A stretch of DNA of 64,000 nucleotides. It comes from Verrucomicrobiota bacterium (GTDB taxonomy: Bacteria > Verrucomicrobiota > Verrucomicrobiia > Opitutales > Opitutaceae). The stretch spans positions 62,001 through 126,000 of the forward strand of contig JAQGOP010000018.1 of assembly GCA_028293545.1 (NCBI GenBank), read 5' to 3'. A program made the translations under genes and the position numbers. The number at the start of each line of letters is the position of its first letter. Position 1 is the stretch's first letter. The notes beneath the pieces were generated by a model that saw only the letters and a program-made list of their open reading frames with translations, was not told where the DNA came from and made no database searches. Positions 670 through 17,076 of this stretch are shown here, piece by piece.

Positions 670-1659
670 TTTTTTCGCGTAGCCCTGCGGATGCGACGCG
701 TGCCACTTCCAGGCGGTCGCCACGATCGAGTCGATGTCGGGGAATTTTATTTTCCACCCGAGTTCCCGCTGGGCCTTCGATGAATCCGCATATAGCGCCG
801 GGGGATCGCCCGCCCGCCGCGGACTTTCGACCAGCGTGATTTTCCGGCCCGTGATTTTTTCCACGGCGCGAATCACTTCACGGTTGGAAGTGGGCCGACC
901 GGTGCCGAGATTGTAGAACAGCGCCGCGCCCGGGGTCGCCAGCTTCGGGAAAACGGCAATATGCGCGCGGCTCAAGTCGTCGACGTGCACATAGTCGCGC
1001 AGGCAGGTGCCGTCCGGGGTGGGGTAGTCGGTCCCGAAAACCTGGAGATGCTCCCTGCGGCCGGTCGCGGCGTCGAAGGCCAGCGGGATCAAATGGGTTT
1101 CGGGCGCATGGTCTTCACCGATGACGCCGTCCTCCGCCGCGCCCGCGGCGTTGAAATAGCGAAACGCGGCGAAGCTCAGCCCATGCGCGACCGCGATCGC
1201 CTTGAGTGCGTTCTCCACGTCCAGTTTCGTCTGACCGTAGGGATTGATCGGCGCCTGCGGCATGGCCTCGGTGATCGGGAGCGTCGCCGGGACGCCGTAG
1301 GTGGCGCAGGTGGACGAGAAGACGAATTTTTTCACGCCCGCGGCCAGCATCGCGCGGAGGAGATGCAGCGTGCCGACCGAGTTGTTGAAATAGTACTTGA
1401 GCGGGTCGGTCACCGATTCGCCGACGTAGCAGTACGCCGCGAAATGCATGACGAGCTCGATCTTCTCGGCGCGCAGGACGCGCTCAACCGCGGCTTCATC
1501 GCCGAGGCTCAACTCATGGAGCGCCACGTCGGCGGCGACGGCCGCACGATGGCCGTAGACCAGGTTGTCGAGCACGACCGGCCGGTGACCCGCCGCGATG
1601 AGCTGCCGGACGCAATGACTTCCGATGTAACCGGCCCCACCGACGACAAGCACGTTCAT
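667..1659 (-). CDS. galE: UDP-glucose 4-epimerase
   Basis: At 330 aa this has the length and order of GalE, an extended short-chain dehydrogenase that interconverts UDP-glucose and UDP-galactose in the cytoplasm. The NAD-binding GGAGYIG is at residues 7-13, the active-site region SSTCATYG at 115-122 (Thr117), and the YxxxK pair is Tyr141/Lys145. The DYVHVDDL segment typical of the family follows. The product would feed galactose metabolism and surface polysaccharide precursors. The last codons run into a family A palindrome that supplies the TAG stop. It diverges from the lipid cluster with 58 bp between starts, so both promoters must lie in or near that gap. Confidence 0.93.
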   Translation of the reverse strand: MNVLVVGGAGYIGSHCVRQLIAAGHRPVVLDNLVYGHRAAVAADVALHELSLGDEAAVERVLRAEKIELVMHFAAYCYVGESVTDPLKYYFNNSVGTLHLLRAMLAAGVKKFVFSSTCATYGVPATLPITEAMPQAPINPYGQTKLDVENALKAIAVAHGLSFAAFRYFNAAGAAEDGVIGEDHAPETHLIPLAFDAATGRREHLQVFGTDYPTPDGTCLRDYVHVDDLSRAHIAVFPKLATPGAALFYNLGTGRPTSNREVIRAVEKITGRKITLVESPRRAGDPPALYADSSKAQRELGWKIKFPDIDSIVATAWKWHASHPQGYAKK

Positions 1660-1717
1660 GGAGAGGCTTGTATTGCTTTCAGCGCGGTCTTGGCTAGCGA
1701 TTTCCGTTTACTCACGA

Positions 1718-2956
1718 ATGAAGCCTGCCCGCATCGTCATCACTGGAGTCGGTTTGACCGCGCCGAACGGTAATTCCCTCGGCGAATTCCGCCAAAACCT
1801 CCTCAACGGTGTCGCGGGCGTGGAACGGATGGAAATCCGCTACATGGGCCAGCAGCTGGCGGGCGTCTGCCATTACGACCCATTGCGCCACCAGACCAAG
1901 AAAGAGGTCCGTGTCGGCACGCGCGCCGGGAGCATCAGCATCTATTGCGCGCGCGAAGCGGTGAAGGACAGCGGCCTCGATTGGGCGAAGCAGGCGAAGG
2001 ATCGCGTGGGCATCTACATCGGTTGCACCGAGCACGGGAACGTGGAGACGGAGAACGAGATTTATAACATCTCGAAATTCAACTACGACACGAAGTTCTG
2101 GTCGCACTACCACAATCCCCGCACGGTCGCCAACAACCCCGCGGGCGAAGCGTCGCTGAACCTGGGCGTCACCGGTCCCGCTTATACGATCGGCGCGGCG
2201 TGCGCGGCGGGCAACCTCGGGCTGATCCATGCGACCCAGATGCTGCGCCTCGGCGAAGTCGACCTGGCGATCTGCGGCGGCGTGAGCGAGAGCATCCATA
2301 CGTTTGGAATTTTCGCCGGCTTCAAGAGCCAGAACGCGCTCGCCTCGCATGAGGACCCGAAAAAAGCCAGCCGCCCGTTCGACAAGGCGCGCAACGGCAT
2401 CGTGGTGTCCGAGGGCGGTTGCCTCTACACGCTGGAGCGGCTCGAGGACGCCCAGGCGCGCGGCGCGAAAATTTATGCCGAGATCGCGGGTTACCATGTG
2501 AACTCCGATGCGAGCGACTACGTGCTGCCGAACCCGATCCGCCAGGCCGAGTGCGTGCGTTCCTCGCTGCAACGCGCTGGGCTGAAGGCCAGCGACATCC
2601 ACATCGTCAATACGCACGCGACCGCGACGCCGCTTGGCGACATCCAGGAATGCGAGGCGATCCGCGCGGTATTTGGCGAAGGCTGCCCGGAGACCCACAT
2701 CAACAACACGAAGAGCTATATCGGCCACTGCATGGGCGCGGCGGGCGCGCTGGAGCTGGCGGGAAACCTGCCGTCGTTCGACGACCTCACCGTGCACCCG
2801 ACGATCAACGTCGACGACCTCGACCCCGCCTGCGCTTTGCCCGGTTTGGTCCTGAATCAGCCCCGCAAGGTTGAAAAGGTGGACACCATCCTCAATAATT
2901 CATTCGGGATGCTCGGGATAAATTCCACGTTGATTGTTAAACGCTTTGTCCGCTAA
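1718..2956 (+). CDS. Beta-ketoacyl-ACP synthase II-like condensing enzyme (FabF family)
   Basis: This 412-aa KAS opens the lipid cluster. The start MKPARIVITGVG at 1718 is chosen because it matches the family N-terminus; longer starts upstream run into the galE start. The complete Cys-His-His catalytic set is visible: Cys162 in GAACAAGN, His300 in NTHATATPLGD and His337 in KSYIGHCMGAAGA with Lys332, followed by NSFGMLGINS. The family decarboxylates malonyl-ACP and condenses it with acyl-ACP, elongating by two carbons. With its own ACP 19 bp downstream, this is probably a pathway-specific synthase rather than the housekeeping FabF. Chain-length preference cannot be judged from sequence alone. 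Confidence 0.9.
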   Translation: MKPARIVITGVGLTAPNGNSLGEFRQNLLNGVAGVERMEIRYMGQQLAGVCHYDPLRHQTKKEVRVGTRAGSISIYCAREAVKDSGLDWAKQAKDRVGIYIGCTEHGNVETENEIYNISKFNYDTKFWSHYHNPRTVANNPAGEASLNLGVTGPAYTIGAACAAGNLGLIHATQMLRLGEVDLAICGGVSESIHTFGIFAGFKSQNALASHEDPKKASRPFDKARNGIVVSEGGCLYTLERLEDAQARGAKIYAEIAGYHVNSDASDYVLPNPIRQAECVRSSLQRAGLKASDIHIVNTHATATPLGDIQECEAIRAVFGEGCPETHINNTKSYIGHCMGAAGALELAGNLPSFDDLTVHPTINVDDLDPACALPGLVLNQPRKVEKVDTILNNSFGMLGINSTLIVKRFVR

Positions 2957-2975
2957 GTCCCTCGCTTCTGCCCAT

Positions 2976-3239
2976 ATGACCAAAGATGAATGTAAGAAGG
3001 TGGTGACGGACATAATCGCCGACATCGCACCCGATGAGGATTTGAGCACGCTCAAGCCCGACGTGCGCCTGCGCGACCAGCTTCAATTGGATTCAATGGA
3101 CTTTCTCGACATCGTGATGGAGCTCCGGAAACGCCACGGCATCGAGGTGCCCGAGGCGGATTACGCCCAGCTCGCCTCGCTCGATAGTTGCGCCGAATAC
3201 CTGACGCCGAAGTTCAACGCGCTGAGCGCCAAGAGTTGA
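2976..3239 (+). CDS. Acyl carrier protein
   Basis: This is an 87-aa acidic carrier starting MTKDECKK at 2976. The attachment motif DSMDF carries the phosphopantetheine-accepting Ser40, and the helical layout of ACPs is visible (LDSMDFLDIVMELRKRHGIEVP). It should carry the growing acyl chain for the neighbouring condensing enzyme, dehydratase and reductase. It lies 19 bp after the KAS gene, implying cotranscription. The final residues (FNALSAKS) extend beyond a typical ACP fold and look disordered. Because the cluster lacks fabG and fabD (fabD is elsewhere, at 16120), this ACP probably shares some core fatty-acid enzymes. Confidence 0.9.
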   Translation: MTKDECKKVVTDIIADIAPDEDLSTLKPDVRLRDQLQLDSMDFLDIVMELRKRHGIEVPEADYAQLASLDSCAEYLTPKFNALSAKS

Positions 3240-3378: not shown

Positions 3379-4812
3379 ATGAATTCCCGCTCGCATTATG
3401 ACGTCGCCATCATCGGCGCGGGGATGTCCGGCCTCGCCGCCGGGATCCGGCTGGCGCATTTCGGCCAGCGCGTCTGCATTTTCGAACGCCATAACACGGT
3501 CGGCGGGCTGAATAGTTTCTACAGCATCGCCGGCCGCAAATTCGACGTCGGCCTCCACGCGATGACGAACTACGTCCGCCCGGGAGTGAAGGGCACCCCG
3601 CTGGGAAAACTGCTGCGCCAGCTCCGGATCGAGCGCGATGAGTTCGCGCTGTGCGAACAGAAGCAGTCGCGCATCGCCTTCGGTCCCCGCGGCGAGACCT
3701 CGCTGCGCTTCACCAACGATTTTGCCGTCTTGGAGAGTGAAGTCGCGACGCATTTCCCCAGCCAGGTCGACGGATTCAGGAACCTGGCGAATGCGGTGCG
3801 CGCCTTCGACGACGTCTCGCTCGACGCGGCACCCGTGTCGGCCCGCGAAACGGTGCGCCGGCACATCTCGGATCCGTTGCTTGAGGACATGCTGTTCTGC
3901 CCGCTGATGTATTACGGCAGCGCGACCGAGCACGACATGGATTTCGGGCAGTTCGTGATCATGTTCAAGGCGCTCTTCCTCGAGGGCTTCGCCCGGCCCT
4001 TCGAAGGCGTGCGTGTGATCCTCCGGGTGTTGCTCGACAAATATCGCGCCGCCGGCGGCGAGCGACGCATGAAATGTGGCGTGCAGAAAATCATCGTGCG
4101 CGACGGGCGGGCGAGCGGAGTGAAGCTCGACGACGGCGAGGAGATCACCGCCGACCACGTCATTTCCTCGGTCGGAGCGCCCGAAACCGAGCGGTTGATC
4201 GCCGACGAACCTTCCTCCGGCACCGCGACGAAAGCCGGGCGCCTTTCGTTCGTCGAAACGATCACGATCCTCGATCGCCAACCCGCCGAACTCGGGTGGG
4301 GGAGCGACACGATCGTTTTCTTCAACGATTCGCCGCGCTTCCATTACGAGTGTCCCAGCGGCCAGGTCGATCCCCGCAGCGGGGTTATCTGTATTCCCAA
4401 TAATTTCGATTTCGGACCTGACCTGAAATTGCCCGAAGGGATTTTCCGCTGCACCTGCCTCGCCAATTACGACCGCTGGGCGGACCTGCCCGAGGAAACC
4501 TACCAGGCCGACAAGCAGCGTTGGTACGAAATTCTCCAGCAGAGCGCCCGCCGGTTCCTGCCGCCGCTGGCCACGCCGGATGCGCTTGGGCGCGCGACGC
4601 TGGCCACGGACATGTTCACGCCGCGCACGATCACAAAATTCACCGGTCATCTCGGCGGCGCGATCTACGGGGCGGGCCGCAAGAATCGGCAGGGCCGAAC
4701 CGCCCTCGCCAACGTTTACCTGTGCGGGACGGACCAGGGTTTTCTCGGGATCGTGGGCGCGATGCTCAGCGGGATTTCGATGGCGAATTACCATATCCTC
4801 CAAAAGGGTTGA
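3379..4812 (+). CDS. FAD-dependent phytoene desaturase-like (CrtI family) oxidoreductase 1
   Basis: At 477 aa it has the length and fold order of CrtI/amine-oxidase-type flavoproteins. The dinucleotide-binding GAGMSG is at residues 13-18 with acidic Glu36, then HNTVGG. The C-terminal FAD motif is present (YLCGTDQGFLGIVGAMLSG). Known relatives desaturate or isomerise carotenoids, or saturate retinol. No phytoene synthase or other carotenoid gene is nearby, and the enzyme sits between an ACP and a FabZ/FabI pair. I therefore infer action on an acyl or polyene chain. The start MNSRSHYDVAIIGAG is close to the FAD motif, as usual. The substrate is unknown. Confidence 0.82.
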   Translation: MNSRSHYDVAIIGAGMSGLAAGIRLAHFGQRVCIFERHNTVGGLNSFYSIAGRKFDVGLHAMTNYVRPGVKGTPLGKLLRQLRIERDEFALCEQKQSRIAFGPRGETSLRFTNDFAVLESEVATHFPSQVDGFRNLANAVRAFDDVSLDAAPVSARETVRRHISDPLLEDMLFCPLMYYGSATEHDMDFGQFVIMFKALFLEGFARPFEGVRVILRVLLDKYRAAGGERRMKCGVQKIIVRDGRASGVKLDDGEEITADHVISSVGAPETERLIADEPSSGTATKAGRLSFVETITILDRQPAELGWGSDTIVFFNDSPRFHYECPSGQVDPRSGVICIPNNFDFGPDLKLPEGIFRCTCLANYDRWADLPEETYQADKQRWYEILQQSARRFLPPLATPDALGRATLATDMFTPRTITKFTGHLGGAIYGAGRKNRQGRTALANVYLCGTDQGFLGIVGAMLSGISMANYHILQKG

Positions 4813-4868
4813 ATTCGACGGCACGAAGGCCCCTGCAACTTGTCAGATGGGGTGCCGTCTTACCCCCC

Positions 4869-6137
4869 ATGAAACCCCTACTTGGACTCCGCGTCGCTGT
4901 ACTCCTGAGTGGCGTTGGAATTTTCCTTCCCGCGGGCTTGGTGCGAGCCCAGGAAAACCTCGCGGCGACAACGCCGGTGCCCCAGCTCACGCGCGCGCAG
5001 CTCGACGAATTGCTTGGGCCGATCGCGCTCTATCCCGACGCCCTCGTGGCCTTGATTCTCCCGGCGGCCACGAATCCGGCGGAGATTGTATTGGCCGCGC
5101 GTTTTTTGAACGCGAACGGCGACCCGGCCCAGATCGATAATCAACCGTGGAGCGACAGCACCAAATCGCTCGCGCGGTATCCGGACGTGATCAAATGGAT
5201 GGACATCAATCTCGAGTGGACGCGCCAGGTGGGGGAGGCATTTCTCGACCAGCCCGACGAGTTGATGACTTCCGTCCAGCGCCTGCGCGCCACGGCGCGC
5301 GCGACCGGCGCGTTGGTGGATACGCCGCAGCAGCAAGTGGTGGTTGATGCCGACACGATTGAAATTGTGCCGACCCAACCCGACGTGATCTACGTCCCGG
5401 TCTACGATCCTGAAATCGTCTACGTCATGCATGGGCCGGGATATTATCCGTCTTATCCCTATCTCACGTTTGGTGCCGGTTTCGCCGCCGGCGTGTGGCT
5501 GTCGAACGATTTCGACTGGCACCATCGGACGATCTGGGTCGGGGATCACCAACACGACTGGCGCCAGCACCGCGACTGGCGCCGCAGCAATCCCCCGGGT
5601 GCGCGCCCGCCGAACAATCCCGGCTGGCATCAATGGCAGCCCCCGACCAATCGCCCGCGCCCCCCGCGCCCCGGTGGCCGCCCGCCCAGCAATATAATCC
5701 GTCCCCGGCCTTTTGTGGGCCCGCAGAATGTGCCCGGCGCGGGCCGCCCGAACACGCCGCAGACGAATGCTCCTCGTCCGAACGATGCCGGTCGTCCGCC
5801 CCGCGCGGAAAACAACGCCCGTCCTACGCGCCCGCCACAGGGCAACGTCCAGCCTTCCGTCCCCGCGCCTACGCCGCGTCCGCCGCAGGAGCGCCGCTTC
5901 AATCCGCCGAACGCTTCGCCCACGCGGCAGCCCAGCCCGCCGCCGCCAGTGCAGCCGCCGGTGACGGTGCAACAATTGAATCGCGCGACCCCAATGGCGC
6001 CCCCGCGGGCCACGCCCGGCCCGCAACAGCAGCAGCCCCGGATCTTGCCGCCAAGCCAGCCAATTCAATCCGCCCCCGTCGCGCAGCCGCCCCCGCCGAA
6101 GCAGCGCGAAAGCATGGATCGCGAGAAGCGGGATTGA
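4869..6137 (+). CDS. Secreted DUF3300 protein with proline-rich C-terminus
   Basis: This 422-aa protein starts MKPLLGLR at 4869. It has a clear signal peptide (about residues 1-27, ending ...LVRAQ), then the DUF3300 region (QLDELLGPIALYPDALVALILPA and IVPTQPDVIYVPVYDPEIVYV). About 200 residues of Pro/Arg/Asn/Gln-rich low-complexity sequence follow. DUF3300 has no assigned biochemical role. The protein is presumably periplasmic or outer-membrane associated. It sits between the two CrtI-like genes and breaks an otherwise metabolic operon; a family A palindrome follows its stop by about 20 bp. Whether it serves the lipid pathway or arrived by insertion is open. Confidence 0.75.
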   Translation: MKPLLGLRVAVLLSGVGIFLPAGLVRAQENLAATTPVPQLTRAQLDELLGPIALYPDALVALILPAATNPAEIVLAARFLNANGDPAQIDNQPWSDSTKSLARYPDVIKWMDINLEWTRQVGEAFLDQPDELMTSVQRLRATARATGALVDTPQQQVVVDADTIEIVPTQPDVIYVPVYDPEIVYVMHGPGYYPSYPYLTFGAGFAAGVWLSNDFDWHHRTIWVGDHQHDWRQHRDWRRSNPPGARPPNNPGWHQWQPPTNRPRPPRPGGRPPSNIIRPRPFVGPQNVPGAGRPNTPQTNAPRPNDAGRPPRAENNARPTRPPQGNVQPSVPAPTPRPPQERRFNPPNASPTRQPSPPPPVQPPVTVQQLNRATPMAPPRATPGPQQQQPRILPPSQPIQSAPVAQPPPPKQRESMDREKRD

Positions 6138-6399: not shown

Positions 6400-7866
6400 A
6401 TGGCGTACGACTGGCTTAAAGGAGTGGCCGACGAGTATGATGTCATCGTGATCGGCAGCGGTCTCGGTGGCCTCACGGGCGCCAACGTGCTCGCCAAGGC
6501 CGGTCACAAGGTCCTCCTCCTCGAGCATCACTACCAGTTCGGCGGCCTGGCCACTTGGTTCACCCGCAAGGGCGGGCATATCTTCGATATTTCGCTGCAC
6601 GGGTTTCCCGTCGGCATGATCAAATCCTGCCGGAAATATTGGACGAAGGAGATTTCGGATTCGATCGTGCCGCTGAAGGACATCCGCTTCATCAATCCCC
6701 AGATGGACGTCTGGACCACGTTCACGCGCGAGGATTACACGCGTGTTTTAGTCGAGCAGTTTCATCTCGAACCGGCGCACGTGGAGAAATTCTACGAGCA
6801 CCTCCGGGGGATGAATTTCTACGACAACAACCCCGAGACGACCGGTGAAATGCTCGAGCGGTTTTTCCCGGGACGCGACGACGTGAAGCGCCTTTTGATG
6901 GAACCGATCGCGTATGCCAACGGCTCCACGCTCGACGATCCGGCGATCACCTACGGCATCGTCTTCTCGAATTTCATGGGCTCGGGCGTCTACACGTTTC
7001 GCGGCGGCTCGGATCTGCTGATCGAAAAGATGATCGCCGAACTGAAGAAAAACGGCGTCGAAGTGCGGAAGAAAGTCCTCGTCGATCGGATCCTCGTGGA
7101 GGAACGCGACGGCCGGAAAGTCGCGGCCGGCATCGTCGCCAGCAGCGGGCGCGTGATCCGCGCGAAAGCCATCCTCTCGAACGCCAACATCAAAAACACG
7201 ATCTTCCGTCTCGCCGGCGAGGAGAATTTCCCGGCGGACTACGCTGCGGCTGCGCGCGCGGTGCGGATCAACGCGAGCTCCTGCCAGGTTTATCTGGGGA
7301 TTCGAAAGGGCGAAACGATCCCGCACATCGGCGACCTGGTGTTCACGTCGGAAAACCCGAAATTCAGCAGCGAGGAGCTGACGGACTTCAACACCACCAG
7401 CCGGACATTTTCCGTTTATTACCCCGAAACCCGGCCCGGCTCGGATCGCTACACCGTCGTCGTCTCATTGAACGGCCAATACGGGGACTGGAAGAAACTC
7501 AGCGACGAGGATTACGAAAAAGAGAAAGCGCGCCTCGTCGAGGAATCGATCGCGGCGCTGGAGCGCTACATCCCGGGAGTTCGCGCCAAGATCGACTGGT
7601 CCGAAGCGGCGACGCCCCGGACGATCGAGCGCTACACGACCCACCAGGGCGGCACGTCGTTCGGCACAAAGTTCGAAGGACTGAAGGTCTCGATGGAATT
7701 GTCCGAAAAACTTCCCGGCCTTTTCCACGCCGGTTCCGTCGGGATCATTATGTCGGGCTGGCTCGGGACGATTAACTACGGCGTGATCACGGCGAACAAG
7801 ATCGACCAGCTGCTCTTTAAGCTCAAATCCGCGGAGTCATCCGTGACGGCCACCAGCGGCGCTTAG
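6400..7866 (+). CDS. FAD-dependent phytoene desaturase/retinol saturase-like oxidoreductase 2
   Basis: This 488-aa flavoprotein is the second CrtI-like member of the cluster. The FAD-binding GSGLGG is at residues 19-24 with Glu42, followed by [12 protein letters not shown]. The C-terminal segment [22 protein letters not shown] corresponds to the family FAD motif. It differs strongly from the first copy, so it is a distinct enzyme rather than a recent duplicate. Two CrtI-like enzymes with an ACP and FabZ/FabI suggest repeated (de)saturation or isomerisation of an acyl chain (inference). The start MAYDWLKG at 6400 is chosen as the first ATG in a consistent frame; no clear ribosome-binding site precedes it. 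Confidence 0.8.
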
Positions 7867-7966
7867 CGAATGGGAGCAACGCCGGCCAGCCGGCCGGAAC
7901 CCGGTGCGCCGTGGGCTTTCTTTTCCGCACTTGCGGGCCGTGGGGACCCGCTGCGAAGGTGAGGCC

Positions 7967-8413
7967 ATGTTTCCACCCGTCACGGACCTGATCCCACATC
8001 GGCCCCCGTTCCTGTTTGTCGACGAGATCGTCGCGGAAACCGCCGATGGACTGGTGGCAAAGCGGTTGTTCCGGGCTGACGAGGATTTCTACCAAGGCCA
8101 TTACCCGGGCGCACCGATCACCCCCGGGGTGTTGCTTTGCGAGGCGGTTTTCCAGGCAGGCGCGCTCTACATGGCACGGAGCATGGCGGGGCAGGGGAGC
8201 CGAAACGGAGTGCCGCTGCTGGCCAAAGTGAGCGATGTCCGTTTTCGTAATCCCGTGTATCCCGGCGAAACGATTCTCATCGAGGTCAGGAAGAAGGAAG
8301 CCATCGGCGGATTTACGATGATGAGCGGGAGCGTCAAGAGCGGTGAGAAGCGCGTTTTGAATGTCGACTTCGCGGTGGCGTGGAAAATCCCGGAAGCCAC
8401 TCCTGCGACATGA
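7967..8413 (+). CDS. FabZ-like 3-hydroxyacyl-ACP dehydratase
   Basis: This 148-aa hot-dog-fold protein starts MFPPVTDLIPHRPPFLFVD at 7967, preceded by the purine-rich GAAGGTGAGG, one of the few good ribosome-binding sites here. FabZ residues are present: His45 in HYPGAPITPG (His-x-Pro-Gly form) and Glu59 in LLCEAVFQAG. The family dehydrates 3-hydroxyacyl-ACP to trans-2-enoyl-ACP. Its stop overlaps the start of the enoyl reductase gene (ATGA), so the two are translationally coupled and act in sequence. It could also be a FabA-like isomerase, but the motif spacing fits FabZ better. Confidence 0.87.
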   Translation: MFPPVTDLIPHRPPFLFVDEIVAETADGLVAKRLFRADEDFYQGHYPGAPITPGVLLCEAVFQAGALYMARSMAGQGSRNGVPLLAKVSDVRFRNPVYPGETILIEVRKKEAIGGFTMMSGSVKSGEKRVLNVDFAVAWKIPEATPAT

Positions 8414-9222
8414 CCGATTTCCTCCAGGTTTCGGGGAAGACTTTCCTGGTGTTTGGCGTGGCCAATCGAAAGAGCGTCGCCTGGTTCACCGCGAAGTCCC
8501 TGGAAGAGCAGGGTGCCCGGGTCATCTACAGCGTCCGCTCCGAAGCCCGGAAAAAATCCCTCGAGGCCCAATTGGCCGGGAAGCCGGTATTCGTCTGTGA
8601 TGTCGAGCGGGCTGGTGCCGTCGACGGCTTGGCGCGCGAAATCAAGGCGGGCGGACATCCCGAGTTGCATGGGATCGTGCACTCGATCGCATTCGCGAAT
8701 TACAGCGAGGGCTTCAAGGCGTTCCACGAAACCAAGCGCGACGATTTTCTCCAGGCGATGGGCGTGACGACGTTTTCACTCGTCGAGGTGGCGCGCGCTT
8801 TCAAGCCGGTGCTCGCGAAGCACGCGTCGGTGGTGACGATCGGGATTTCGTCGCTGCAGGTGACGCCGGACAACTACGGCTACATGGGCCCGATCAAGGC
8901 CGCGTTGGATTCGTGCGTGAGGTTCCTTGCGAAGTCGTTCAGCGCGGACACGTCGGTGCGGTTCAACTCCGTCGGCTCGGGCCCGCTCAAAACCAGCGCT
9001 TCCGCCGGCATCCCGGGCTACCTGGAAAGTTACCTCTACGCCGAGAAACTCACGTTTCGAAAGCAGAACCTGGCGACGCAGGAAGTCGCCAACGCCGTGT
9101 TGTTCCTGCTGAGCGAGCGGAGCAGCGGCGTGAATGGCACGACGCTCATTGTGGACGCGGGCCTCGGCTCGAATTATTTCGACCAGGAAATCATCCGCCT
9201 CGCGATGAGGCTCGAGAAATAA
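8410..9222 (+). CDS. fabI: Enoyl-ACP reductase, FabI type
   Basis: At 270 aa starting MTDFLQVSGK at 8410, overlapping the dehydratase stop (ATGA), this matches FabI. The cofactor loop GVANRKSVAW sits near the N-terminus. The Tyr-x6-Lys pair lies in NYGYMGPIKAAL, and GTTLIVDAGLG near the C-terminus is typical. FabI reduces trans-2-enoyl-ACP with NAD(P)H, completing an elongation cycle. In E. coli FabI a second tyrosine lies ten residues before the catalytic one; here that position appears to be Ile (ISSLQVTPDNY), which may affect activity or inhibitor binding. It may be the housekeeping FabI or specific to the cluster; no other fabI is in the window. Confidence 0.88.
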   Translation: MTDFLQVSGKTFLVFGVANRKSVAWFTAKSLEEQGARVIYSVRSEARKKSLEAQLAGKPVFVCDVERAGAVDGLAREIKAGGHPELHGIVHSIAFANYSEGFKAFHETKRDDFLQAMGVTTFSLVEVARAFKPVLAKHASVVTIGISSLQVTPDNYGYMGPIKAALDSCVRFLAKSFSADTSVRFNSVGSGPLKTSASAGIPGYLESYLYAEKLTFRKQNLATQEVANAVLFLLSERSSGVNGTTLIVDAGLGSNYFDQEIIRLAMRLEK

Positions 9223-9229
9223 CCCGCGC

Positions 9230-10264
9230 ATGAGGTTCGAAAACGTCTGCATCGAGTCACTCGCCGTCGCGCTTCCGGGCGAGAGTTGGAGCTCGGCGGC
9301 CATCGAGGAAAAGCTTCGCCCGCTTTACGAGCGGCTCAAACTTCCGGCGGGACGCCTGGAATTGATGACGGGGATTCGGGAGCGGAAAATGTGGCCGCCC
9401 GGCACTCGCCCCTCCGACGCCAGCGCAGCCGCGGGCAAGGCGGTGCTCGAGAAATCGAACCTGCACGCCGGACAGGTGGAGCTCTTCATCCACGCCGCCG
9501 TCAGTCGCGACATGCTCGAACCCGCGACGGCGTCGTTCGCGCATCGCAAGATCGGACTGCCGCCGTCCGCGCAGATTTTCGACGTGTCGAATGCCTGCCT
9601 GGGATTCCTCAATGCGCTCACCATCGCGGGCGGCCTGATCGAGTCGGGCCAAATTAAGTGCGCCTTGATCGCCTCCGGCGAAAACGGGCGTCCGTTGGTC
9701 GAACAAACAATCTCAACCCTGCTGGGCCACTCTTTCACGCGAAACGAAATCAAGCCGTACTTCGCCAACCTCACGATCGGATCCGGCGCGGTCGCAGCCG
9801 TGGTTTGCCACCGATCGATGGTCAAAGGCCGGCCGCATCGCCTGCTGGGTGGAGTCGCCCGCGCCGCCACTCGGTTCAGCGATCTCTGCCAGGGCGATAC
9901 CCACGGCGCGGAATCGCTCGCGATGCAGACCGACTCCGAGCAGCTCCTGGTCGCGGGGGTCGGGCTCGCGCAGGAAACTTGGAATGAGTTCAGCGCCGCC
10001 GGGGGCTGGGCGAAGGAATCGTTCGATCGTTTTATTTGTCATCAGGTCGGGAGTACGCATCGGCGAAAACTGTACGAGATGCTCGGCCTCGACCTGGCGA
10101 AGGATTTTTCGACGTTTGAAACGCTGGGAAACACCGGATCCGTCGCGTTGCCGGCCACGCTGGCGGCGGCCATCGACGCGGGCGCCGTGCGCGAAGGCAG
10201 CCGGGTGGGATTGCTCGGCATCGGCAGCGGACTCAACTGCCTGATGCTCGCGCTCGAATGGTAG
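9230..10264 (+). CDS. OleA-like head-to-head condensing thiolase (KAS III superfamily)
   Basis: This 344-aa thiolase-fold enzyme has Cys123 (NACLGF), His271 (CHQVGSTH) and Asn301 (LGNTGSVALP). The SRDMLEPATA segment carries Glu97. In Xanthomonas OleA the key residues are Glu117, Cys143, His285 and Asn315; the Glu-to-Cys distance (26) and His-to-Asn distance (30) are the same here. OleA joins two fatty acyl chains head to head into a beta-keto acid, the first step of long-chain olefin or ketone formation. That, and the overlap with an OleB-like gene, argues for OleA rather than FabH, whose Glu position is not conserved. It starts 7 bp after fabI. Confidence 0.82.
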   Translation: MRFENVCIESLAVALPGESWSSAAIEEKLRPLYERLKLPAGRLELMTGIRERKMWPPGTRPSDASAAAGKAVLEKSNLHAGQVELFIHAAVSRDMLEPATASFAHRKIGLPPSAQIFDVSNACLGFLNALTIAGGLIESGQIKCALIASGENGRPLVEQTISTLLGHSFTRNEIKPYFANLTIGSGAVAAVVCHRSMVKGRPHRLLGGVARAATRFSDLCQGDTHGAESLAMQTDSEQLLVAGVGLAQETWNEFSAAGGWAKESFDRFICHQVGSTHRRKLYEMLGLDLAKDFSTFETLGNTGSVALPATLAAAIDAGAVREGSRVGLLGIGSGLNCLMLALEW

Positions 10265-11151
10265 ACGCACCGCAGCTCCCGGAATGGCTGGCGCGCCAGT
10301 ATCCGTTCATGCCGAAGTCGTTCCTGACGGCGAACGGCGCGCGGATGAGTTTCGTCGACGAAGGCCCGCGCACCGCCGAGGCGGTGCTGATGCTGCACGG
10401 CAATCCGACGTGGTCGTTTTATTTCCGCAACCTCATCCGCGAACTCGCACCCACGCAGCGCTGCATCGCGCCAGACCATGTGGGCATGGGCTTGTCGGAG
10501 AAACCTGCGGACTACGATTACACGCTCGCCACGCGGATCGCGGATCTAGCCGGGCTGGTCGAGACGCTTGGTTTGAAACGCATCCACCTCGTCGTGCACG
10601 ATTGGGGCGGGGCGATCGGTTTTGGATTTGCCGCGCGGCATCCGGAGATGATCGGACGATTGGTGGTGCTGAACACGGCGGCTTTCGCCTCGACGCAAAT
10701 TCCGGCGCGCATCGCGCTCTGCAAGGCGCCGGGCTTCGGCCCGTTTTTGGTGAGGGGATTCAATGGTTTTGCCTGGCCGGCGACCTGGATGGCAATGCAT
10801 CGGCGGCCGCTCACGCCGCCGCAGAAGCGCGCTTATCTTTTCCCGTATCGCTCGTGGGCGAAACGGATCGCGGTCAGTGCCTTCGTACGCGATATCCCGC
10901 TCGATGCGTCGCACGTCAGCTGGAACACGCTCGCGGCGACCGAGGCCGGGCTCGTGGAATTCAAGGACCGCCCGGCCTTGATTGTTTGGGGCGGGAAGGA
11001 TTTTTGTTTCAACGATTCATTCCTCGCGCGCTGGCGGGAGATTTTGCCCGGCGCACGCTGCGTCCGCATCGCCGATGCCGGTCACTACGTGCTCGAGGAC
11101 GCGGACGCGGAGGTGATCCCGCTGATCCGGGATCATTTGGTTCCGCGGTAA
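10258..11151 (+). CDS. OleB-like alpha/beta hydrolase (haloalkane dehalogenase family fold)
   Basis: This 297-aa hydrolase overlaps the oleA-like gene by 7 bp. It has HGNPTWSF (47-54), the nucleophile Asp115 followed by Trp116 in VVHDWGG, and the catalytic His276 in DAGHYVLED. These are haloalkane dehalogenase features, but OleB enzymes share them. OleB decarboxylates beta-lactones to cis-olefins in the Ole pathway, usually with OleC and OleD. Because it directly follows an OleA homologue I call it OleB-like; a dehalogenase is the alternative. No oleC-type AMP ligase or oleD-type reductase follows: the next gene is malQ on the other strand. Confidence 0.78.
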   Translation: MVDAPQLPEWLARQYPFMPKSFLTANGARMSFVDEGPRTAEAVLMLHGNPTWSFYFRNLIRELAPTQRCIAPDHVGMGLSEKPADYDYTLATRIADLAGLVETLGLKRIHLVVHDWGGAIGFGFAARHPEMIGRLVVLNTAAFASTQIPARIALCKAPGFGPFLVRGFNGFAWPATWMAMHRRPLTPPQKRAYLFPYRSWAKRIAVSAFVRDIPLDASHVSWNTLAATEAGLVEFKDRPALIVWGGKDFCFNDSFLARWREILPGARCVRIADAGHYVLEDADAEVIPLIRDHLVPR

Positions 11152-11431: not shown

Positions 11432-12955
11432 TCAGCGGTCGTAGAGGGCCGCCAGTTCTCGCAGGTATTTCACCGTGCCGTCACTGAGCGAGCGCAGCTG
11501 TTCGGGACGGAAGCGCCAGGACCAGTTGCCCTCGGCGACACCGGGGCTGTTGAAACGCGCGACCGATCCGAGGCCGAGCAGATCCGGCAGGGGAACGATC
11601 GTGAGCGCACAGACGGAGGCGTACGCGACGCGAAGGAAGTCCCAGTTGATTTCCTGGCCGTCGACGCGGAGATAGCGGCGGACATGGTCGCGAGTCTTCT
11701 CGTCTGCCTCGGCGTACCAGCCAATCGTCGTGTCGTTGTCGTGCGTGCCAGGATACACCACGCAGTTGGCGCGGTGATGGTGAGGCAGGTAAAAATTATC
11801 CGCGGCCCCGCCAAAAGCGAACTGCAGGACCGCCATCCCGGGAAGCCCGGTGGCTTCGCGCAGCGCAATCACTTCCGGCGTGAGGGTGCCGAGGTCCTCG
11901 GCGATCAATTTCGCGCCGGGTAAAGCGGCGCGGATCGCGCGAAAGAAATCCAATCCGGGCCCGAGGACCCAGTGCCCGGGCCGGGCGGTGGCGGATCCCG
12001 CGGGAATGGACCAATAGGCTTCGAAGCCGCGGAAATGGTCGATGCGCACGACGTCGAAAAGCGCAAAATTCGCGCGGAGCCGGGCGATCCACCAGGCGTA
12101 ACCATCGGCGGCGTGGACGGGCCAGTTATAGAGCGGATTTCCCCAGAGCTGGCCGTCGGCGGAGAAATAATCCGGCGGGCAGCCGGCGACCGCGGTGGGT
12201 CGGGCGGTGCGGGGATTAAGTTGGAAAAGCTGTGGATTCGCCCAGGCATCGGCGCTGTCGAGCGCAGCGAAGATCGGCGCATCGCCGATGATCGCAATAT
12301 CGAGGGCGGCAGCCTTGGCCCGCAGCTGCGTCCATTGCCCGAGGAAAAGGTATTGGATGAATTCGTACGCCTCGATCCGCACGGCCAGTTCGCGCGGGAG
12401 GGCGGATTTGCGGGCGAGCGCCGGGTTGCGCGCGGCCGCCGGCCATTCCCACCAGGGACGATCCTTGAAATTCTCCTTGAGCGCGCAGAAGAGCGCGTAG
12501 TCTGGCAGCCACGCGGCTTGCTGGCGGCGAAACTCCTCGAAGTCGCCATAGGGCAGGATGCGGCGCCCGCCACGGACAAACTCCGCATGCGCGCCGAACA
12601 ACACCGGCCACTTCGCATGGTAAATCCCGCCGAAATCGACGCGGTCCTTGGGCAGGGCCTGTAGCGCTTCGGCGTCAGCGGCGGTGACCAAGCCCTCGTG
12701 AATTAGGGCGGCGACATCGATCAGGTAGGGATTTCCCGCGAACGCGGAAAAGCATTGGTAGGGCGAATCGCCGTAGCCGGTCGGACCGAGCGGGCAGATT
12801 TGCCACGCTTTGAATCCCGCGGCCGCGAGAAACTCAAGAAAGCCCACCGCATTTTCATCGAGGCTCCCGATGCCATAATCGCCCGGCAGGGAGGTCGGGT
12901 GCAGCAGCACACCGGCATGACGCCCGGTCAGCCAACTGGACTGCGGCTCACTCAT
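11432..12955 (-). CDS. malQ: 4-alpha-glucanotransferase (amylomaltase)
   Basis: At 507 aa from the ATG at 12955 (a TTG six bases upstream is possible), it matches GH77 MalQ. The N-terminus has GVLLHPTSLPGDYGIGSLDENA. The catalytic region has VVRIDHFRGFEAYW (nucleophile Asp), LIAEDLGTLTPEV (acid/base Glu) and VYPGTHDNDTTIGWY. The enzyme transfers alpha-1,4-glucan segments in maltodextrin and glycogen metabolism in the cytoplasm. It is the last gene of a minus-strand run after lepB (52 bp gap). That gap is unusually AT-rich (ACATAATATCTATTGTG), so malQ may also have its own promoter. Confidence 0.95.
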   Translation of the reverse strand: MSEPQSSWLTGRHAGVLLHPTSLPGDYGIGSLDENAVGFLEFLAAAGFKAWQICPLGPTGYGDSPYQCFSAFAGNPYLIDVAALIHEGLVTAADAEALQALPKDRVDFGGIYHAKWPVLFGAHAEFVRGGRRILPYGDFEEFRRQQAAWLPDYALFCALKENFKDRPWWEWPAAARNPALARKSALPRELAVRIEAYEFIQYLFLGQWTQLRAKAAALDIAIIGDAPIFAALDSADAWANPQLFQLNPRTARPTAVAGCPPDYFSADGQLWGNPLYNWPVHAADGYAWWIARLRANFALFDVVRIDHFRGFEAYWSIPAGSATARPGHWVLGPGLDFFRAIRAALPGAKLIAEDLGTLTPEVIALREATGLPGMAVLQFAFGGAADNFYLPHHHRANCVVYPGTHDNDTTIGWYAEADEKTRDHVRRYLRVDGQEINWDFLRVAYASVCALTIVPLPDLLGLGSVARFNSPGVAEGNWSWRFRPEQLRSLSDGTVKYLRELAALYDR

Positions 12956-13006
12956 GCACAACGTTACTTAACATAATATCTATTGTGCGTAGAGCCCATG
13001 GAAGCG

Positions 13007-16119: not shown

Positions 16120-17031
16120 TCAGGCAGTCACATCCGAGAATTCAGCAAAGCTCTTCACCACCCAGCTCTTTTCCGTCCGTCGCGCCAATCCGGCGAGTAC
16201 GCCTCCCGGCCCCAGTTCCCAGAACTCCGTCGCACCCGCCGCCGCCGCGCTGCGCATGCAGTCTTCCCAGAGTACCGATGACACGACCTGTTTCACCAGT
16301 GCGGCCTTGAGGTCAGCCGGGACCGAAACCTCCTGGCCCGTCGTATTCGTGAACACCGTGAACTTGGGCGGAGCAAACGGGATCGCCTCGAGATAACTGG
16401 CGAACGCGGCGCGCGCCGGTTCCATCAGCCGCGAGTGATACGCACCGGCGACGTTGAGCGGGATGATTTTCTTGATCCCGCGCTCTTTCGCCGCCGCGAC
16501 CGCGGTATCGATTTTGGATTTCTCGCCGGAAACGATGACCTGGCCGGGCGCGTTGAAATTCGCGGCCTCGATGTCGAATTCGCGGCAAAGCTCGTGAACC
16601 TTGGCACGCTCTTCGCCCATCACCGCGGCCATGCCGCCGGTGGTCTGTTCACAGGCCTGCTGCATCAGTCGACCGCGCTCGGCGACGATCTTGAGCCCGG
16701 TCGCAAAATCGAAAACGCCTGCCGCGCAGTCCGCCGTGAGTTCCCCCAGGCTGAGTCCCAGCGCCATCCTGGGTTCGCCCGCCGGGAGTTTCCCTTGTTC
16801 GCGCAGAGCCGCGAGCAACGCGAGCCCATGCACGAACAGCGCCGGCTGGCAGACCTTGGTTTGCGTCAGTTCGGTTTCAGGTCCTTCGAAGCAGATTTTC
16901 GTGAGTTCCCAGCCCAAAACCGTGTTCGCTTCGTCGTACAATGCACGCGCCGCCGCCGATTGCTCGTAAAGCGACCGTCCCATGCCGACTTTTTGGGCTC
17001 CCTGACCGGAAAAAATTAGTGCCAATGCCAT
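16120..17031 (-). CDS. fabD: Malonyl-CoA:ACP transacylase
   Basis: This 303-aa protein starts MALALIFSGQGAQKVGMG at 17031. The nucleophile Ser94 is in GLSLGE and the catalytic His199 in AGAYHSRLM; FSGQGAQ is the family's N-terminal signature. It loads malonyl groups from CoA onto ACP for fatty-acid synthesis in the cytoplasm. It is separated from the ketoacyl synthase/ACP cluster at 1718-11151 and sits in a housekeeping run with lepA and lepB. It could supply malonyl-ACP to both primary fatty-acid synthesis and that cluster. Confidence 0.95.
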   Translation of the reverse strand: MALALIFSGQGAQKVGMGRSLYEQSAAARALYDEANTVLGWELTKICFEGPETELTQTKVCQPALFVHGLALLAALREQGKLPAGEPRMALGLSLGELTADCAAGVFDFATGLKIVAERGRLMQQACEQTTGGMAAVMGEERAKVHELCREFDIEAANFNAPGQVIVSGEKSKIDTAVAAAKERGIKKIIPLNVAGAYHSRLMEPARAAFASYLEAIPFAPPKFTVFTNTTGQEVSVPADLKAALVKQVVSSVLWEDCMRSAAAAGATEFWELGPGGVLAGLARRTEKSWVVKSFAEFSDVTA

Positions 17032-17076
17032 CGTTGAACCGGTTAGAACATCGCCCGGCCCTCTAAAAACCAAGCC

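Follow-up and report, generated by a model that had tools for sequence, protein, structure and literature searches.

The systems closest to the locus described here, an oleA-oleB gene pair in a 64,000-nucleotide stretch of an Opitutaceae genome (the window; C35:62001-126000), are the OleABCD pathway of Xanthomonas and Shewanella, the pfa-ole genes of Geobacter bemidjiensis, and clusters of fatty-acid genes in Desulfotalea psychrophila and Kuenenia. Ole enzymes have been purified from oleABCD, oleBC-fusion and oleACD contexts, among which the account names no separate oleAB pair (mBio 2020, PMC7064751). The Shewanella hydrocarbon depends on Pfa, and a 16:4 chain is the predicted substrate of Shewanella OleA (PMC6463001); in Geobacter the pfa and ole genes are in tandem (PMC4882568, PMC3098273). 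D. psychrophila makes C31:8 and C31:9, has no known polyunsaturated fatty acid pathway, and carries type II fatty-acid synthase (FASII) clusters with phytoene-dehydrogenase-like genes; a FASII/phytoene-dehydrogenase route to C31:9 hydrocarbons was proposed for Desulfotalea in the same paper (Rattray 2009, PMC2649909). The Kuenenia homologues kuste3336 and kuste3607 made no lycopene in the work of Javidpour (PMC4790861). The presence of ole genes in Opitutae, planctomycetes and Nitrospina is already published (PMC5673642, PMC10176705, PMC7158056), and olefin production has been shown for a verrucomicrobial species (PMC7158056).

In the window, oleA and oleB are preceded on the same strand by genes for a FabF-like synthase, an acyl carrier protein (ACP), two CrtI-family flavoproteins, a FabZ-like dehydratase and a FabI-like reductase. 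Our reading, to which we give a probability of about 0.72, is that the genome encodes a complete split Ole pathway fed by a dedicated synthase that makes special acyl chains. As in Xanthomonas and Shewanella, there are the OleA residues and spacings and an OleB-type hydrolase, with OleC and OleD in the genome; the differences are that oleAB and oleCD are apart, and that an apparently dedicated FASII and two CrtI-like flavoproteins lie beside oleA. The linkage of a special acyl-chain synthase to ole genes recalls pfa-ole of G. bemidjiensis (PMC4882568, PMC3098273), although here discrete type II proteins and flavoenzymes take the place of the large multidomain Pfa. The Desulfotalea and Kuenenia clusters likewise have FabF, FabZ, ACP and phytoene-dehydrogenase-like genes together, but theirs include S-adenosylmethionine-radical genes, which the window's cluster lacks, and no tie to ole genes is made in the available part of that paper (PMC2649909).

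The two halves of the Ole pathway

The oleA gene (9230-10264, forward strand) encodes P0001, a predicted head-to-head condensing thiolase of 344 residues. It passes NCBIfam NF006720 (PRK09258) with 439 bits against a cut-off of 285, and its best solved relatives, matched over the full length at E ~7e-66, are the 3row/3s21/5vxh group, which carry the label '3-oxoacyl-[ACP] synthase III' and which we take to be Xanthomonas OleA structures. Glu97, Cys123, His271 and Asn301, presumably the OleA catalytic set, have the Glu-Cys spacing of 26 and the His-Asn spacing of 30 that a first, sequence-only reading had claimed, and they are kept in all 40 OleA proteins aligned from the order, at 51-86% identity, and in all 25 from other groups, at 43-52%. 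We reject FabH as an identity for P0001, which scores 85 bits against TIGR00747 (fabH), far under the cut-off of 292, yet lies over the OleA-type model; a separate FabH-type C-terminal domain match (124 bits) is on contig C22. A search of the genome (3.96 Mb in 63 contigs, 83.8% complete, 3.7% contaminated) found a single OleA. Judged by its sequence P0001 is an OleA, with the predicted activity of condensing two long acyl chains non-decarboxylatively.

The downstream gene (10258-11151, forward strand) encodes P0002, an OleB-type hydrolase of 297 residues, and the open reading frame (ORF) coordinates confirm the reported 7-base overlap with oleA. P0002 is an alpha/beta hydrolase closest to haloalkane-dehalogenase models, but we reject it as a haloalkane dehalogenase since its best match reaches 159 bits against a cut-off of 241, and every haloalkane-dehalogenase cut-off shown exceeds its score. 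No OleB-specific model is among its family-model matches. Asn49, Asp115, Trp116, Asp248 and His276 are kept in all aligned relatives (36/36 from the order and 14/14 from other groups), and we assume for these conserved OleB residues the hydrolase roles of Asp nucleophile, Asp and His. An alpha/beta hydrolase with an Asp nucleophile, Asp and His was thus found adjoining OleA, and its sequence leads us to presume that it is a beta-lactone decarboxylase. The sequence-only reading had allowed that the pair might turn out to be a FabH and a haloalkane dehalogenase; with P0001 over NF006720 and P0002 under the dehalogenase cut-offs, the sequences speak otherwise.

As that reading had also stated, neither oleC nor oleD is beside the pair, and the next gene is malQ on the other strand (11432-12961, reverse; PF02446, 549 bits). 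Its suggestion that the two are elsewhere in the genome was correct: the search located them side by side on contig C5. The sole OleC above the family cut-off in the genome (C5:23283-24959) has 628-629 bits against the NF006754 (PRK09274) cut-off of 478, and is under the stricter equivalog models (498 of 900 bits for Xanthomonas, 444 of 850 for Shewanella). The gene directly after it has NF042422 (2-alkyl-3-oxoalkanoate reductase) as its best family, and because its 398 bits are under the equivalog cut-off of 580 we classify it from sequence as OleD-like and divergent. A true loss of OleC and OleD is therefore rejected, both being on C5 and OleC over its cut-off. Histone-deacetylase-like and RNase-D-like genes precede the pair, and the same gene order recurs in three family genomes that are complete or nearly so (L155, L156 and L157), so it is unlikely that C5 is contamination.

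Separation of oleAB from oleCD is usual in the order. We compared 40 oleA stretches with up to 10 kb per side, 20 from the genus and family and 20 from other families, three of the 40 being shortened by contig ends. In these oleB follows oleA in 36, and oleC or oleD is near oleA in none; around oleC, oleD is present in 16 of 20 stretches, and oleA or oleB in none of the 20. Among 20 Nitrospinota and planctomycete oleA stretches, ten have an oleA-oleB pair without C and D, two have all four ole genes, and in one the genes A, B and C run to the end of the contig; four have oleA without a detected oleB, one contig ends just after oleA, and in two oleA is with FabF and ACP. A complete split pathway in the window's genome is very probable.

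Genes of the upstream module

The first gene of the module encodes a FabF-like beta-ketoacyl-ACP synthase (1658-2956, forward strand; PF00109/PF02801), whose start may be the ATG at codon 21. It scores 314 bits against TIGR03150 (fabF), under the cut-off of 494, and we therefore regard it as a divergent FabF; the catalytic residues Cys182, His320, Lys352 and His357 are kept in 40/40 aligned sequences. The ACP gene follows (2976-3239, forward strand; PF00550), with an ORF of 2934-3239 and an ATG at 2976, and it adjoins FabF in other loci too; a direct repeat had been suspected around this gene, but none was found. Closer to oleA are a FabZ-like dehydratase (7904-8413, forward strand; PF07977; likely start an ATG near 7967) and a FabI-like enoyl reductase (8410-9222, forward strand; PF13561). 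The dehydratase has 96 bits against the NF000582 cut-off of 113, and its His66 and Glu80 are kept in 29/29 aligned sequences. The reductase has 169 bits against the NF006369 cut-off of 370 and is below the FabI equivalog cut-offs shown; its Tyr166 and Lys173 are kept in 67/67 aligned sequences, and all 21 sequences caught by the pattern have Ile ten positions ahead of the Tyr.

CrtI_1 (3379-4812, forward strand) and CrtI_2 (6400-7866, forward strand), the latter used as the marker gene of the module, are flavin adenine dinucleotide (FAD)-dependent CrtI-family oxidoreductases by family models and predicted fold. CrtI_2 has a mean column identity of 62% over 32 sequences from many groups. The two score 80 and 59 bits against CrtI TIGR02734 (cut-off 238), and the top-scoring model for CrtI_2 is carotenoid isomerase TIGR02730, at 118 bits against a cut-off of 587. 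FabF, FabI and both flavoproteins are thus well under their nearest equivalog cut-offs, while the FabF and FabI catalytic residues are kept. The predicted structures of the flavoproteins are confident (predicted local distance difference test scores 88 and 90) and both are closest to 4rep, with Z 31.6 and a root-mean-square deviation (rmsd) of 2.9 over 435 residues for CrtI_2, and Z 30.1 and rmsd 3.7 over 436 for CrtI_1. The fatty-acid isomerase 2b9w is among the further matches (Z 22.6, rmsd 3.8 over 391; Z 21.8, rmsd 4.2 over 384), which shows that proteins of this fold can work on the double bonds of fatty acids; the shared fold does not fix the function of either flavoprotein. CrtI desaturases and the carotenoid isomerase share the fold and the FAD-binding region with them, but the scores are far under the cut-offs and the neighbours here are fatty-acid, not isoprenoid, genes.

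Association of the module with ole genes

The tie between the module and ole genes is well supported, and it is highly likely that the FabF/CrtI module serves the Ole pathway. Within the order, the eight-gene block FabF-ACP-CrtI_1-CrtI_2-FabZ-FabI-OleA-OleB is complete in 12 of the 40 loci, including one of another family (L075), and CrtI_2, FabZ, FabI and OleA are together in 26. In one order family, CrtI_2 lies ~3.5 kb before oleC-oleD (L144-L147, chosen since this closeness was known from the searches); CrtI_2 is therefore found beside one half of the pathway or the other. Elsewhere in the phylum, outside the order, 20 loci (L124-L143) have none of OleA, FabF, ACP, FabZ and FabI beside CrtI_2, and a look at their neighbours brought out no conserved family shared by most of these loci, the neighbour lists being poor for the low-GC loci L129, L131, L133 and L137 because of gene calling.

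For other groups we used the best 80 of at least 587 CrtI_2 relatives from a CrtI_2-alignment scan of named genomes. By record title these derive from Lentisphaerae and relatives, Planctomycetota, Nitrospinota, Nitrospirota, Chloroflexota, Deltaproteobacteria, Muiribacteriota, a Bacteriovoracaceae metagenome-assembled genome (MAG) and one Opitutaceae MAG (L221). Many of their contigs are short, near for ole genes means within 10 kb, and the identity floors of 30-40% for ole matches drop weak ones in L164 and L203. Near CrtI_2 are CrtI_1 in 44 loci, FabZ in 43, FabI in 37, ACP in 34 and FabF in 30. An ole gene is near in 11, all of which also have CrtI_1: four of the seven Chloroflexota loci, five of 25 in Planctomycetota, one of two in Nitrospirota, and the Opitutaceae locus (1/1). 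Control genes are rare there, with malQ, RNase D, the histone deacetylase and DUF3300 in none of the 80, galE in two and NtrC in one.

The arrangements differ in which ole genes are adjacent. L221 has the whole block of the window, galE included, at 55-90% identity. Chloroflexota have the order oleA-FabF-ACP-CrtI_1-CrtI_2-FabZ-FabI, and Phycisphaerae and another planctomycete have oleC-oleD-FabF-ACP-CrtI_1-CrtI_2-FabZ-FabI; a Nitrospirae MAG has oleC-oleD-FabF-ACP-CrtI_1-CrtI_2 up to the contig end, and in L234 oleABCD is divergent from the module. In L220 and L191 a FabG gene lies between CrtI_2 and FabZ, and a phosphopantetheinyl transferase follows the module in L191 and L216; with these two additions the module is nearly a self-sufficient type II synthase. 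Median identities to the window are 68% for FabF, 59% for ACP, 57% for CrtI_2, 55% for FabI, 50% for CrtI_1 and 45% for OleA, and conservation is thus higher in the chain-building enzymes than in the Ole enzymes. For CrtI_1 and CrtI_2, identities from one phylum to another are about 43-64%. Three of the loci have individual peculiarities. L197 (Dehalococcoidales) has two OleA and two FabF matches in tandem before CrtI_1-CrtI_2, a duplicated oleA-FabF pair. L220 (Nitrospina) encodes a 233-residue protein without a Pfam match between CrtI_2 and FabG (11503-12204). L229, labelled Candidatus Kuenenia stuttgartiensis, belongs to a 7.4 Mb genome, has a stretch of 60.5% G+C, an OleA, and neighbour genes unlike the published Kuenenia cluster; we doubt the label and have dropped this locus as proof that Kuenenia shares CrtI_2.

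Module and ole genes also occur in the same genomes. In 273 genomes of the order (E limits 1e-30 for OleA, 1e-40 for OleC, 1e-60 for CrtI_2 and 1e-50 for CrtI_1), OleA was found in 212, OleC in 217, CrtI_2 in 212 and CrtI_1 in 211, although in very small genomes some of the weak OleC hits may represent ligases of another kind. OleA, OleC and CrtI_2 are all present in 192, all absent in 44 and partly present in 37. All three are missing from, among others, families f16, f7 and f28, from genus g22 in f5 and from genus g25 in f8, but are retained in sister genera g47 and g48. Across the phylum, a sample of 337 genomes has CrtI_2 and OleA in 84, CrtI_2 alone in six, OleA alone in six and neither in 241 (Fisher P 4e-64, a value that ignores kinship); three of the OleA-only genomes are in one family, f52, with OleA identities of 37-39%. 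Outside the order, OleA is present in 35 of 40 CrtI_2-bearing genomes of the phylum, and not one of the 20 stretches examined places the two side by side. In Lentisphaera marina (L283) the genes FabF-ACP-CrtI_1 and OleA are divergently oriented, with CrtI_2 alone elsewhere.

Fifty CrtI_2 genomes of other groups, picked mostly for OleA not adjoining and many of them incomplete MAGs, gave OleA in 43 (E 1e-25) and OleC in 42 over the curated cut-off, or in 44 at E 1e-60. Neither was found in G570 or G600. In four MAGs of Dehalococcoidia, Deltaproteobacteria and Nitrospirae (G561, G565, G568 and G580, the genomes of L184, L188, L192 and L207), module genes and OleA are present but nothing matched OleC at E 1e-60; the pathway there may yield a ketone or another product, or the MAGs may be incomplete.

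The acyl chain and competing explanations

Conservation and linkage suggest that the six upstream genes form a dedicated FASII branch which would make one particular acyl chain for OleA. The branch would have its own condensing enzyme, carrier, dehydratase and reductase, joined in some other phyla by FabG and the phosphopantetheinyl transferase. Less certainly, the two CrtI-family flavoproteins may desaturate or isomerise acyl-ACP without oxygen to give a polyunsaturated chain. OleA would then join two chains, OleD would reduce the keto acid, OleC would close the beta-lactone, and OleB would release CO2; the resulting long hydrocarbon would be polyunsaturated and might be of the C31:8 or C31:9 type.

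We lean towards a polyunsaturated chain by analogy, because of the Pfa dependence in Shewanella, the pfa-ole tandem of Geobacter, the clusters of the C31:8 and C31:9 producer D. psychrophila, and the absence here of a PfaA over its cut-off. No PfaA-type synthase was found in this 84% complete genome, where the best match has 123.5 bits against the TIGR02813 cut-off of 1010, and such an enzyme is rejected as the chain supplier. The product and the flavoprotein chemistry we infer; a C31:8 or C31:9 hydrocarbon is a tentative choice, with chances slightly short of even. Opitutaceae TAV2 is said to make C31:9, a finding ascribed to Sukovich in 2010.

Several observations weigh against this interpretation. 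Ole genes are near CrtI_2 in just 11 of the 80 loci, and in none of the 20 Nitrospinota loci, the 21 of Lentisphaerae/Kiritimatiellota/Verrucomicrobia or the four others; the 21 loci of the second group also gave no match to any further module gene near CrtI_2. OleA was not found in seven of the 50 CrtI_2 genomes, nor any OleC match (E 1e-60) in six, and the co-occurrence partly reflects shared ancestry. The chains of the module could be unusual in some other way. CrtI_1 and CrtI_2 are likened to the Desulfotalea and Kuenenia genes (DP1860, DP2405, DP2406, kuste3336 and kuste3607) by description, not by sequence. According to one review, every C31:9 producer also makes eicosapentaenoic or docosahexaenoic acid, although C31:9 is reported there in Geobacter (PMC4882568).

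In an alternative that we consider unlikely, a complete OleABCD is fed ordinary acyl-coenzyme A by the housekeeping synthase, as in Xanthomonas, and the module makes some other lipid, such as a polyene pigment or a special membrane fatty acid, being a neighbour by chance or through co-regulation. It would account for the 69 of 80 other-group loci without an ole gene within 10 kb and for the genomes that have CrtI_2 or OleA alone. It does not sit well with the repeated adjacency of the module to differing ole genes, seen in Opitutaceae, Chloroflexota, Planctomycetota and Nitrospirota, nor with module and ole genes co-occurring unlinked and being lost together in several order lineages.

A second alternative places the action of the flavoproteins and FabI downstream of OleA, for instance in saturating or modifying the hydrocarbon; it is quite improbable. 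The flavoprotein genes are interleaved with FabF, ACP, FabZ and FabI, and in L191 with FabG and the phosphopantetheinyl transferase as well, which points to carrier-bound substrates, even though CrtI-family enzymes work on long hydrocarbons and the best model for CrtI_2 (below its cut-off) is the carotenoid isomerase. The sequence-only reading had proposed that the FabI-like and flavoprotein genes might stand in for OleC and OleD; it was right that they matter to the pathway but not that they are substitutes, as the evidence puts them upstream of OleA, in chain-building. Its other proposal, release of the beta-keto acid of OleA as a ketone for want of OleC and OleD, is suggested by their not adjoining oleA and may hold in G565 and G568 (Dehalococcoidia), G561 (a Deltaproteobacterium) and G580 (Nitrospirae), but is unneeded, unsupported and extremely improbable in a genome with OleC over its cut-off and an adjacent OleD, and with OleC in 217 of 273 relatives.

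Under the preferred reading, a split Ole pathway supplied by its own synthase, what is already known is the presence of ole genes in these groups and the 2009 route proposal, and what appears to be new is the tie of the module to ole genes across phyla. The relevant passages of two earlier papers describe an ole operon in Opitutae, or count oleC alone, and leave the module unmentioned (PMC5673642, PMC10176705); within open-licence PubMed Central we found no paper tying such a FASII/CrtI module to ole genes. The sources of polyunsaturated chains without Pfa, possibly without oxygen, and of the ladderane precursor are standing questions, and a compact module that accompanies ole in several phyla provides a clearly delimited set of genes together with a specific partner enzyme, OleA, and a product that is easy to measure. 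Rattray's proposal thereby becomes testable in cultivable bacteria, and Nitrospinota and planctomycetes would join the known sources of long-chain biogenic hydrocarbons, with a particular chemistry to look for. A bolder view, for which the odds are a little under one in two, is that FabF-ACP-CrtI_1-CrtI_2-(FabG)-FabZ-FabI is a second, Pfa-independent and oxygen-independent route to polyunsaturated chains in several phyla, devoted to head-to-head hydrocarbons, and that an offshoot of it may supply the ladderane precursor of anammox bacteria.

Two other genes of the window deserve mention. Between the two flavoproteins is an ORF for a DUF3300 protein (4521-6137, forward strand; PF11737), the first part of which overlaps CrtI_1, so the gene must start later. 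It was matched in only some of the 40 order loci, all close relatives, and in 0/80 CrtI_2 loci, and is probably outside the pathway. About 5 kb past the cluster, on the other strand and adjoining lepA, is a gene with a FabD-like acyl-transferase domain (16120-17073; PF00698), which is probably the housekeeping FabD.

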